A stretch of 64,000 nt of DNA. Source: Kutzneria kofuensis. Its GTDB lineage: Bacteria; Actinomycetota; Actinomycetes; Mycobacteriales; Pseudonocardiaceae. The stretch lies in NCBI RefSeq assembly GCF_014203355.1, contig NZ_JACHIR010000001.1, positions 5,768,038 to 5,832,037 of the forward strand, in the 5' to 3' direction. Made by a program: the position numbers and the translations under genes. Each line of letters starts with the position of its first letter. Within the stretch, counting starts at the first letter, position 1. The notes beneath the pieces are model-generated. The model had not been told where the DNA came from, searched no databases, and saw only the letters and a list, made by a program, of their open reading frames with translations. Below, in pieces: positions 28,367-33,916 of this stretch.

Positions 28367-29614
28367 TCAGGCGAACGCGGGGGCCGTCTCCAACAGGTCC
28401 AGGAACGCCTGCTGGTGGACGGTGAGGTCGTCGCCGGAGTACAGCGCCGGGTTGCCGTCGAAGTCGATACGGGGACCGGAGCCGCCCTGGCCGCCGTGCA
28501 CGGTGATGGTGAGGTCCTCGACGGGGCCGGCCGCCAGGGTGTGGGCGACGGCGGGGTGGTGGTCGAAGGCGAGCTCGTAGCTGATGGGGTTGATGTCGAC
28601 GACGGGCCCGTAGAGCCGGGGCACATGGAGTTCGTGGCGCAGCAGCTCGGAGCGGTACCGCTCATGGGGCTGGCAGACCTTGACCTCCTCGGCGATGTCG
28701 CCGGCGAGCTCGGTCAACGACGCGCCGGGCGGGGTGAGCACCCGCAGCGGCATGGTGTTGGACGTCGAGCACGGCACGTTGAGGGCGGCGGTGCGCCGGC
28801 GGCACATGCGGGGAACGCCCAGCACGACCTCGGAGGTGCCGGTGACGTGCCGCAGGTACGCGGCGACGGCGGCGATGACGACGGCGGACCAGCTGGTGCG
28901 GCAGCGGCCGGCGACCTCGGCCCAGTCCTCCAAGGCGGTCCGGGGCAGCTCCACGGTCCGGCGCAGCACGCCGGCGGACGGCGAAGCGGTGCCCTCGACG
29001 AGGCTGATGGGCATGGGCGCGTCGGCGAACCGGTCCAGCCAGAACCGACGGTCCCGCCGCCAGCCGGCGGACAGCGCGTAGGCGACGTCCTCGTCCACCA
29101 CGGGTCGTAAGGGGTCGAACGGTTCGCCGTCGAGGCCGCTGTACAGCTCGGAGACCCGGCGGTCCATGAGGAAGAGCCCGTAGCGGTCGAGGGCGATCCG
29201 GTGGCTGCGGTGGTACCACAGCACCCGCTCGGCCGACACGGTGATCAGCGCCTGCCGGAACAGCGGCCCCTCGGCCAGGCTGACGGGATCGGCGAGGTCG
29301 GACCGCATCCACGCCAGCGCGGCGGACAGCGGATCGGGCGAAGCGCTGACGTCGACGGTCTCCAGCTGGAACGGCCGCACCGCTACGACGTCCTGGCAGC
29401 CGACGACGGCGAACCGCATGTGCAGCGCCTCGGCCTCGGCGACGGCCCGCCGGGTGGCGGCCTCGAACCGGTCGTGGTCGACGGGCCCCGCGATGTCGAC
29501 GTACTCGGCGACGTTGTGCGCGGCGCCGCCGGGATCCGCCTGGTGCGCCGAGAAGATCCCGTGCTGTGCGGCGGACAGCGGCCACCGGGACGTCGAGAAC
29601 GCGGTCATGCTCAT
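28367..29614 (-). CDS. Stand-alone condensation-domain acyltransferase-like protein
   Basis: A 415-residue protein with the fold signature of NRPS condensation domains: WPLSAAQHGIFSAHQ at residues 11-25 (C1 motif), a C3 region WYHRSHRIALDRYG at 133-146, RRFWLDRF, and VVLGVPRMCRR (C5-like). The active-site motif HHxxxDG is altered to HRIALDR, so the second, catalytic His is Arg139. No adenylation or carrier domain is attached. It may be a divergent acyltransferase or have lost catalysis. ATG 29614 overlaps the patatin stop as ATGA; ATG 29608 has better spacing to AGGGGG. Last gene of the hydrolase-GMC-patatin unit. Confidence 0.82.
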   Translation of the reverse strand: MSMTAFSTSRWPLSAAQHGIFSAHQADPGGAAHNVAEYVDIAGPVDHDRFEAATRRAVAEAEALHMRFAVVGCQDVVAVRPFQLETVDVSASPDPLSAALAWMRSDLADPVSLAEGPLFRQALITVSAERVLWYHRSHRIALDRYGLFLMDRRVSELYSGLDGEPFDPLRPVVDEDVAYALSAGWRRDRRFWLDRFADAPMPISLVEGTASPSAGVLRRTVELPRTALEDWAEVAGRCRTSWSAVVIAAVAAYLRHVTGTSEVVLGVPRMCRRRTAALNVPCSTSNTMPLRVLTPPGASLTELAGDIAEEVKVCQPHERYRSELLRHELHVPRLYGPVVDINPISYELAFDHHPAVAHTLAAGPVEDLTITVHGGQGGSGPRIDFDGNPALYSGDDLTVHQQAFLDLLETAPAFA

Positions 29615-30543
29615 CCCCCTGAGGTGACGGTGGCCAGCGCCGCGCGGGCCTGGGCCCGTCCGTGCGCGACGACGGTCCTGGCCACGTCCGGGTCGAACCG
29701 GGCGAAGCCGGACACCTCGAACTCGTCGGTCGGCTCGACCAGCACGAACCGGGGCGTTCCGCCCGGTCTCAGCTCGGCGAGTTGCCTGGTGTGCTCGTAG
29801 TCCCGCAGCACCGCGAACCGGGCGACGTTCTCGAACGCCAGGCCCAGCGCGTCGCCGAGCGAGGCGGGTTCGCCGGACTGCCGCCCGCACGAGGACGTCA
29901 CGACCACGACGGTCTCCGGCTCGTACGCCATCGCCGGCCGCAGCGGCGTGTTGGCGACCATGCCGGCGTCCACGTAGGTGCGGCCGTCGATGTGCACGGG
30001 CGGGAACAGGATCGGGGCCGCGGCCCCGGCCATCAGGTGATCGACGGTCAGCTGCACCTCAGTGAAGCCCGACCCGGGCGGCGCGGAGTTGGTGAAGTGC
30101 ACGACCTCGCCGCTGCACTCCTCGACGGCCGCGACCACGACCCGCACGCCGTCCCGGATGCGCAGCCGTTCCCCGCCCAAGGCGGCGGTCAGCGTCTTAC
30201 GGGCCGGCGCGGTGTCCAGCAGCCAGGTCCAGCCGACGGAGTCCAGCGCGTAGCCCATCAGGTCGCTCGTCGGCAGCCGCACCAGGCCGGCGGGCCGCAG
30301 CAGCCGCCACAGGTCCAGCCGCGGCTTGTACACGTCGTGGCCCTGCACGGAGATCCACAGCTCCACCAGCTGCTCCGGCGACATCCCGGCGGCCAGCAGC
30401 CCCGCGTTCAATCCGCCGGCTGACGTGCCGGACAGCACGGTCGGGTGCAGCCCCACGTCGGCCAGGCCTTGGGCGACGCCCGCGCCGAAGTACGCCGCCG
30501 AGGCCCCGCCGCCGGACAGCACGAGGGCGACCTCGTCGCTCAT
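29611..30543 (-). CDS. Patatin-like phospholipase
   Basis: A 310-residue patatin-family acyl hydrolase with a Ser-Asp dyad. The oxyanion loop is SGGGASAAYFGAG (10-22), the nucleophile Ser41 lies in GTSAGG, and Asp192 in VDAGMVANTPL. These enzymes release fatty acids from phospholipids or other lipids. There is no signal peptide, so it acts inside the cell or at the membrane face. Both ends overlap neighbours as ATGA, showing coupling to the GMC oxidoreductase upstream and the condensation-like protein downstream. Confidence 0.9.
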   Translation of the reverse strand: MSDEVALVLSGGGASAAYFGAGVAQGLADVGLHPTVLSGTSAGGLNAGLLAAGMSPEQLVELWISVQGHDVYKPRLDLWRLLRPAGLVRLPTSDLMGYALDSVGWTWLLDTAPARKTLTAALGGERLRIRDGVRVVVAAVEECSGEVVHFTNSAPPGSGFTEVQLTVDHLMAGAAAPILFPPVHIDGRTYVDAGMVANTPLRPAMAYEPETVVVVTSSCGRQSGEPASLGDALGLAFENVARFAVLRDYEHTRQLAELRPGGTPRFVLVEPTDEFEVSGFARFDPDVARTVVAHGRAQARAALATVTSGG

Positions 30544-32846: not shown

Positions 32847-33916
32847 CAGCCCGCCGCCCGCTTGAGGAAGTCCACGATGTGCGGAAACACCTCGAGGTCG
32901 GCGTGCTTGCCGATGAACGGGTCGAGGTGGCCGTAGCCGGGCAGCACCCGCAGCTCGTGCCGGCCCGGCGCGGCCTCCTCCAGCCGGCGGTGGAACACCT
33001 GCTGGGAGTCGGTGAACACGCGGTTGTGCGAGCCGGTGAGCAGCAGCAGCGGGGTGCGTACGGCGCCGAGGTCGGCGGTGTAGTCCTCGCCGGTGTCGTA
33101 GGCGACGGCCCGGCCGGCGAAGATGATCTTGCGCACGTGCCGGTCGTAGTGCACGCCGCTGGCCTGGCAGATGTCGCCGATCCGGTGGTGGGTGACCGGT
33201 AGCAGGTTGGCGTGCTCGTACATGGCCGGCCAGCCGGTGCCCCACATCGCGCTGAGCATGTGGCAGGCCGGCACCGAGCACTCCGGGTGCAGCACCGACA
33301 TCAGCTTGGACACCGTCCAGCCGGTGGTGAACGCGGGCGCGCTGCCCCACTGCGGGTCCAGGTACGGCTGGTTGAGCGCGTACTCGACCACGTCCGGGCC
33401 GGCGACCAGGCGCACCCGCGACCACAGCGGCACCCGCGGCGTGAGGCCGACGCTGTTGCACACCACGCTCGCGATCTCCCCGATCACGCCGCTGAACAGG
33501 CTCATCAGGAAGGACACGGAGCCGAGGCAGTGCGCGACCACGTGGATCCGCCGCCCCCCGACGTGGCGGCGGAGCTCGGTGAGCGCCGCGGGGTAGTCGT
33601 GGCGCGCGAGGTCGTCGAGGGTGAACCGGTGGGCCGACTTGTTGTACGGCAGCCGGTTGCTCATCCGGGAGTCCAGCGTCCACACCTCGCCGAACCCGTT
33701 GTCCAGCAGGTGGCTGACCAGATTCCGGTGCTCGGGCATGACGAACATGTCCATGGACGAGGTCAGGCCGTGCACCAGCAGCACCACGTCGTCGGCGTGC
33801 TCGCGGCGGAAGCGGGTCAGGTTCAGGCCGAGGCCGTCCATCGTGGTGACCGGGTGAACGCTCACATCCGCGTCGCGTACACCCTCGAGTGTGTACAGCG
33901 GGATTTCCCGGTTCAT
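32846..33916 (-). CDS. Alpha/beta hydrolase with cysteine nucleophile
   Basis: A 356-residue alpha/beta hydrolase: oxyanion strand VLLVHGLTSSMDMF (45-58), nucleophile elbow VAHCLGS with Cys130 where Ser is usual, and catalytic His330 in GYGHLDPF. The usual Asp position reads Asn298 in GSHNRVF. A Cys nucleophile is known from polyhydroxyalkanoate synthases (GxCxG) and dienelactone hydrolases, so acyl transfer or polymerisation is conceivable. No signal peptide. It is the first gene of a four-gene coupled unit and lies 223 bases downstream of the LAL regulator gene, same strand. GGGGGG precedes ATG 33916. Confidence 0.83.
   Translation of the reverse strand: MNREIPLYTLEGVRDADVSVHPVTTMDGLGLNLTRFRREHADDVVLLVHGLTSSMDMFVMPEHRNLVSHLLDNGFGEVWTLDSRMSNRLPYNKSAHRFTLDDLARHDYPAALTELRRHVGGRRIHVVAHCLGSVSFLMSLFSGVIGEIASVVCNSVGLTPRVPLWSRVRLVAGPDVVEYALNQPYLDPQWGSAPAFTTGWTVSKLMSVLHPECSVPACHMLSAMWGTGWPAMYEHANLLPVTHHRIGDICQASGVHYDRHVRKIIFAGRAVAYDTGEDYTADLGAVRTPLLLLTGSHNRVFTDSQQVFHRRLEEAAPGRHELRVLPGYGHLDPFIGKHADLEVFPHIVDFLKRAAG

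Follow-up and report, generated by a model that had tools for sequence, protein, structure and literature searches.

The proteins of a four-gene operon in Kutzneria kofuensis have described relatives among lipases, flavoproteins and nonribosomal peptide synthetases (NRPS). The operon lies on the minus strand of the window, by which is meant the whole 64,000-nucleotide stretch of DNA analysed here (own assembly 10.4 Mb). Class I cholesterol oxidases (1coy/1b4v) are proteins of ~500 residues that belong to the GMC fold family, with an FAD motif and a His/Asn catalytic pair; they possess no C-terminal domain. In polyene gene clusters, cholesterol oxidases that are secreted occur together with regulators of the LuxR type. 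The glucose dehydrogenase of Burkholderia cepacia (BcGDH) has a [3Fe-4S] cluster held by Cys212, Cys218 and Cys222 and the catalytic pair His476/Asn519 (PMC6719666). Complexes of the BcGDH type also contain hitchhiker (gamma) and multiheme cytochrome subunits. Gastric and lysosomal acid lipases have a Ser nucleophile and an Asp acid. NRPS condensation (C) domains carry the motif HHxxxDG, in place of which the X domain of glycopeptide NRPS, a C-fold domain, has HRxxxDD (PMC11546977). The Kutzneria locus, which sets relatives of these proteins behind a LAL-type regulator, is read here as an operon under regulator control whose enzymes oxidatively process an acyl lipid with a hydroxyl group, resembling a sterol, a terpenoid or a long-chain alcohol, a reading to which a probability of roughly 0.5 is given.

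The operon is real, and it seems to be regulated as a single locus. An earlier account made from the letters alone (the sequence-only reading) had proposed four overlapping minus-strand genes of named families; coordinates, junctions and Pfam matches all agree with it (Abhydrolase_1, E 7e-10; GMC_oxred_C, E 1e-16; Patatin, E 3e-31; Condensation, E 3e-34), and the LAL regulator that it placed next to the gene set is present upstream on the same strand. In order, the genes overlap by 1, 4 and 4 bases, with the junctions TGATG, ATGA and ATGA. The features of the locus are as follows.

33916-32846, minus strand: alpha/beta-hydrolase with a Cys nucleophile, 356 amino acids (aa); C130, N298 (acid position), H330
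32846-30540, minus strand: cholesterol-oxidase-like GMC flavoprotein, 768 aa including an unnamed C-terminal domain; catalytic residues H491 and N534
32199-32231, minus strand: cysteine motif C206-x2-C209-x2-C212-x3-C216 in the GMC protein, a candidate [3Fe-4S] site
30543-31124, minus strand: unnamed domain of ~190 residues, GMC residues 575-768
30543-29611, minus strand: patatin-like acyl hydrolase of 310 aa, in which the dyad motifs GTSAG and DAG were identified by eye
29614-28367, minus strand: stand-alone condensation-domain protein, 415 aa
29183-29203, minus strand: degenerate active-site motif HRIALDR in the condensation protein, replacing HHxxxDG
33975-34006, minus strand: conserved upstream element of 32 bases, invariant across five Kutzneria genomes, with a palindrome and the core GTTTACCACGATG
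37139-34140, minus strand: LAL-type regulator with AAA_16 and LuxR helix-turn-helix domains, 999 aa, upstream of the hydrolase

All four genes are adjacent in six of seven Kutzneria genomes (own included), K. viridogrisea being without the patatin; taken singly, the hydrolase is at the locus in 7/7 genomes, the patatin in 6/7 and the condensation gene in 7/7, frameshifted in one (G057), where it runs through three frames (L059:13268-13540), which may be sequencing error or decay. The hydrolase is 91-92% identical to those of the closest named relatives, which are Kutzneria sp. 744, K. buriramensis and Kutzneria sp. CA-103260. A search of actinobacterial genomes for the four-gene order recovers the set in Kutzneria, so that the objection that the genes are never found together falls away; this adjacency and the tie to the LAL regulator agree with the earlier proposal of one system whose proteins are made together. 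Gene coupling was rejected as strong evidence of one system, such overlaps being ordinary in a genome of this type: the list of open reading frames for the window has further 4-base overlaps at 58876-58879 and 60258-60261. Judged from the junction letters of the relatives, L036, L037 and L040 have overlaps of this kind at every junction, L038 and L059 have them at two junctions out of three, the one between patatin and condensation gene being different, and L039 (K. viridogrisea) has none. The gene set itself goes beyond chance, given the adjacency in 6/7 Kutzneria genomes and the occurrence of hydrolase and GMC protein as one polypeptide in other phyla.

The gap between the LAL and hydrolase genes of five Kutzneria genomes holds 32 invariant bases, ACACCGAATGTCGTGGTTTACCACGATGGAAA (window 34006-33975); within this element lie a palindrome, TCGTGG-TTTA-CCACGA, at 33981-33996 and the 13-base core, which ends 62 bases ahead of the hydrolase start. 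The element was first noted in these five gaps and then in nine further loci with a LAL gene (L055, which has none, was also viewed), leaving 13 of the 27 positives new at the time of the count. That count covered 40 loci, set aside from which were L070 (same genome as L051), short loci repeating genomes, and loci of other phyla or families; a LAL regulator is adjacent and on the same strand in 27 of them. Within 300 bases upstream of the hydrolase at these 27 loci, the core GTTTWCCACGATR is matched with no mismatch in 22, with one in a single locus and with two in four, and the best match at the 13 loci without an adjacent LAL has 3-5 mismatches (0/13 at 0-2). No core match with one mismatch or none was found over 1.38 million positions in the rest of these loci, and K. 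kofuensis has exactly one exact match to the 13-base core in its own 10.4-Mb genome, the reversed control having 0. Scored with a matrix derived from the sites in Streptosporangiaceae and Actinophytocola, the element came first in 12/12 sequences of Kutzneria and of a genus labelled g17, including the whole 64-kb window, with scores of 13.8-15.3 in L039, L151, L152 and L153 and of 18.3-25.4 in the other eight. In the simplest reading, the element looks like a putative LAL operator, though the loci compared are related to one another.

Hydrolase, GMC protein and unnamed domain form a core that predates the operon. GMC, unnamed domain and hydrolase make up a single chain of 1169 aa in Bernardetia, 1143 aa in Azospirillum and 1134 aa in Leptospira, and the fused core also occurs as open frames of 1138-1190 aa at four places in the window's own family; the trio as such is seen in four phyla (Actinomycetota, Pseudomonadota, Bacteroidota and Spirochaetota). 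Because the three parts are fused in several phyla and adjacent in others, there is a strong case that they would act together. Adjacency of the core is seen in Kutzneria, Planotetraspora, Microbispora, Actinophytocola and others, and the order LAL-hydrolase-GMC recurs outside Kutzneria in Planotetraspora, Microbispora, Actinophytocola and g17, the last with a patatin in 5/5 genomes. A patatin joins the core in genera g15 and g41 as well as in g17, with differing gene orders (hydrolase, unnamed domain, patatin, GMC in G014 and G041); a condensation gene was seen beside the core only in Kutzneria. The basic unit thus looks like hydrolase, GMC protein and unnamed domain, with patatin and condensation protein as lineage-specific additions, and the idea of a four-gene system holds as regards the operon but gives way to a smaller basic unit.

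The hydrolase has a scattered distribution, with hits in 26/200 genomes of the family (E<=1e-20) and in 12/396 of the phylum (E<=1e-15), the own genome being counted in both. The unnamed domain is found in 15/298 order genomes (E<=1e-8), elsewhere also as a separate gene or placed between GMC and hydrolase within one chain; it has no NCBIfam match, one of 15 members reached Pfam E 0.06, and the best match among PDB sequences was E 1.1. One genome, G071 (L030, L035), has a separate hydrolase gene plus a fused GMC-domain-hydrolase frame. Copies on Rhodococcus plasmids were dropped as support, the neighbouring hypothetical protein having no match to the unnamed-domain profile; on a Rhodococcus pyridinivorans plasmid the hydrolase copy has in its vicinity a type I polyketide synthase of 14.5 kb and a thioester reductase protein (L144:1407-20648). 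As the sequence-only reading had supposed, no account of a pathway with this gene set was found in the literature searched, most subscription papers lying outside it; nor was a description of the core module, which in the annotated records seen here goes by no names other than 'GMC oxidoreductase' or 'alpha/beta fold hydrolase'.

The hydrolase profile aligns with almost the whole of human gastric lipase (E 5e-11) and, over the first third, with lysosomal acid lipase/cholesteryl ester hydrolase (E 1e-6). Where that family has a Ser nucleophile and an Asp acid, the Kutzneria protein lacks the Ser-Asp-His triad and has Cys130-Asn298-His330 instead, the acid place being assigned from its motif. 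The nucleophile elbow reads HCLG, with the C130 codon at 33529-33527. C130 and N298 are kept in 65/65 aligned rows and H330 in 64/65 (the window is among the rows, and some genomes are represented by both a short and a long copy), and all three residues are kept in the fused proteins of Bernardetia, Azospirillum and Leptospira. C213 and C218 are also invariant in the hydrolase alignment, but the distant fused proteins have no cysteines aligned with them. The combination of a nucleophilic Cys and an Asn at the acid place would lend itself to acyl transfer or to catalysis by way of a thioester intermediate. Kinship with PHA (polyhydroxyalkanoate) synthases was considered and dropped, the NCBIfam E-values being only 0.007 and 0.04.

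The GMC protein is a member of its superfamily by the FAD motif and the His/Asn catalytic pair, and both the GMC_oxred_N and the GMC_oxred_C models of Pfam score above cut-off. Its best PDB match is cholesterol oxidase 1coy (E 1e-28), followed by BcGDH alpha (6a2u) as the second-best group; the best NCBIfam model, cholesterol oxidase NF058674, gives 181 bits against a cut-off of 850, which leaves the protein outside that family. C206, C212 and C216 are invariant in 36/36 GMC rows (window included) and C209 is replaced in three; H491 is present in 36/36 and N534 in 35/36, the exception, L036, being out of frame there. The Kutzneria sp. 744 GMC gene is spread over several frames at L036:9402-10750, perhaps an assembly error, possibly real. 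C206, C212, C216, H491 and N534 are kept across phyla. In BcGDH the x5/x3 spacing of the cysteines is the same and the distance between His476 and Asn519 equals that between H491 and N534 (PMC6719666). The class I cholesterol oxidase 1coy shares the His/Asn pair but has no cysteines at the aligned place and is without the C-terminal domain of the 768-aa window protein. A short-fragment PDB search with the iron-sulfur (Fe-S) region gave only weak matches: none was better than E 0.37, with cholesterol oxidases at E 1.2 and iron hydrogenases at E 4. Because the invariant cysteines have BcGDH spacing and are missing from cholesterol oxidase, an Fe-S-linked dehydrogenase is expected and is likelier than the oxidase of the sequence-only reading.

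Of the two additional proteins, the patatin scores 109.4 bits with Pfam against a cut-off of 27.7 and has the GxSxG and D-x-G dyad motifs as GTSAG and DAG. The condensation protein likewise belongs to its family by score (118.8 bits against 30.6), and it shares that Pfam family and its closest sequences with NRPS C domains: 7c1k, an NRPS C domain that we take to be the RzmA starter domain (E 3e-71), CDA C1 and, further down, EntF. Its best NCBIfam model is the siderophore NRPS MxcG, at 440 bits against a cut-off of 2300 set for the whole enzyme. The seven Kutzneria condensation proteins form one group (100/100) amid C domains of the family in a tree of 31 rows, and descent from NRPS C domains is what the sequences indicate. 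HHxxxDG is absent from the window protein, which has HRIALDR; counting the window protein, 5/5 members of its clade have HRxxxDR, K. viridogrisea has HHxxxDG, and a Kutzneria metagenome-assembled genome has HNxxxDD. Because the ratio of nonsynonymous to synonymous substitution (dN/dS) is 0.13-0.24 in six close pairs, similar to LAL (0.13-0.27) and patatin (0.11-0.26), the protein is held to be kept by purifying selection within the close clade, and decay into a pseudogene is rejected for the window gene; three pairs involving two distant Kutzneria give 0.42-0.50. Other condensation frames of stand-alone size in family genomes measure 426-497 aa at 35-39% identity, some perhaps clipped by contig ends (for example G154:C143:11856-13106).

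X domains recruit P450 enzymes, and a similar recruitment of an oxidoreductase by the Kutzneria protein is drawn as an analogy only. The X domain is embedded in an NRPS and its last motif residue is Asp, whereas the Kutzneria protein is free-standing and has Arg. The role of the second His in C domains is debated, and an active C domain with HQxxxDM is reported (PMC11546977). The Kutzneria protein differs from the C domains of assembly lines in standing alone, in its HRxxxDR and in an operon without a carrier domain, and is likely to be without the usual catalysis. The earlier assignment as a stand-alone condensation-type acyltransferase is therefore kept as to family and independence, but the role as an acyltransferase is doubtful, the second His being Arg and the operon having neither carrier nor adenylation domain.

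From these comparisons we infer the catalytic steps, complex, Fe-S cluster, LAL binding and substrate class of the following scheme. The LAL regulator would turn the operon on through one conserved operator. The hydrolase, as an acid-lipase-type enzyme with a Cys nucleophile, would form an acyl-thioester enzyme and cleave or transfer an acyl ester; the GMC flavoprotein would oxidise the alcohol thus uncovered, giving a ketone or an aldehyde, and its FAD would hand the electrons on, by way of a [3Fe-4S]-type cluster, to a carrier of the cell and not directly to O2, and the unnamed C-terminal domain may bridge hydrolase and GMC protein. The patatin might remove or supply a second acyl group, and the condensation-fold protein, selected and probably no ordinary condensation catalyst, may bind the substrate or a partner. 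The substrate is probably a hydroxylated lipid ester. A sterol- or terpenoid-like compound is suggested because, in genus g8, an OleD/3beta-HSD-type dehydrogenase (two genomes; below NCBIfam cut-offs) and an FAD_binding_4 oxidase adjoin the hydrolase/GMC pair, and because of the kinship with acid lipase and cholesterol oxidase; the FAD_binding_4 family is also found in g36. A squalene-hopene cyclase in the own genome, 1.2 Mb away, is only suggestive in this respect. The acyl-lipid or sterol pathway of the sequence-only reading thus keeps its acyl-acting and oxidising enzymes, while its sterol or lipid substrate is still something we infer. A family of ~397 aa, F11, with no function assigned, adjoins the hydrolase or GMC gene in g8 and g5 (L062:9823-11016).

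The operon is flanked by the LAL gene, by YaaA and by a protein with a sub-threshold fn3 match. The last is convergent and directly downstream (window 27647-28348); its homologues lie downstream at varying distance in the Kutzneria loci L036, L037, L038 and L059, and none was seen in the available stretches of L039 and L040.

Several results weigh against the lipid-processing reading as a whole. Hydrolysis by the first enzyme is not certain, with Cys for Ser and Asn for Asp. The operon is without the hitchhiker and cytochrome subunits of BcGDH-type complexes, and neither was found beside it or among ten neighbour or relative proteins scanned. Many loci that have the core are without the patatin and condensation genes, which weakens the case for their part in one reaction sequence. 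As regards the operator, the palindrome alone was rejected as the regulator site, being unspecific (11 genome sites against 9 for the control); the matrix gave a chance site of the LAL-less L057 a score of 17.6, above the true sites of L039, L151, L152 and L153; and a reverse matrix from three distinct Kutzneria sites placed the element first in 11/20 (6/15 Streptosporangiaceae and Actinophytocola, 5/5 g17) and outside the top two in five.

One rival view is that the core pair alone is one system, with patatin and condensation protein as hitchhikers in the transcript that share no reaction with it. K. viridogrisea does without the patatin, and the condensation gene, confined to Kutzneria when it accompanies the core and frameshifted in one genome, encodes a protein that has lost its catalytic His; the recurrence of the patatin beside the core in g17, g15 and g41, in differing orders, and the low dN/dS of the condensation gene in its close clade speak against mere passengers, and this view is considered possible though doubtful. 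The same C-domain ancestry, with a best score for a siderophore NRPS model, can be turned to a biosynthetic use, in which the operon would complete a natural product of lipid or terpenoid type (e.g. a triterpenoid) and the hydrolase would be a Cys-thioester acyltransferase. LAL control is common in secondary metabolism, the operon has it, Cys with Asn at the acid position is found in 65/65 hydrolase rows, and the genome has a squalene-hopene cyclase; that cyclase is distant, however, no polyketide synthase, terpene cyclase or NRPS was found among the part of the window genes that was scanned, and beyond the LAL gene come NusA- and IF-2-type genes, so that such tailoring seems rather unlikely.

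Degradation of sterol esters or host lipids would have the hydrolase free a sterol and the GMC protein act as a true cholesterol oxidase, yielding H2O2 and a 3-ketosteroid. The hydrolase resembles acid lipase/cholesteryl ester hydrolase, and cholesterol oxidase is both the closest solved structure and the best NCBIfam model of the GMC protein; the shortfall against NF058674, the Fe-S-type cysteines that 1coy lacks, and N-termini of hydrolase and GMC protein in which no signal peptide is apparent when read by eye make this unlikely. More speculative still is an extension of the preferred lipid-processing reading, for which the odds are put lowest: a widespread, undescribed complex would join thioester chemistry of the Cys-hydrolase to dehydrogenation by the Fe-S GMC protein across the bridging domain, the Kutzneria condensation domain having been recruited and, after loss of its catalytic His, turned into a non-catalytic docking or substrate-holding subunit, a course taken independently by X domains.

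The Kutzneria form is apparently a variant of the core with two added acyl-family proteins, one of them seemingly stripped of its usual catalysis. The condensation protein offers a natural case of an NRPS domain off its assembly line and under selection, and its motif varies inside one genus (HHxxxDG, HNxxxDD, HRxxxDR) despite that selection. For the core, the Kutzneria operon is a handle, with separate proteins, an adjacent regulator and one conserved upstream element; because Kutzneria splits the core and sets this regulator and element beside it, the core could be switched on or deleted and its lipid substrate searched for.

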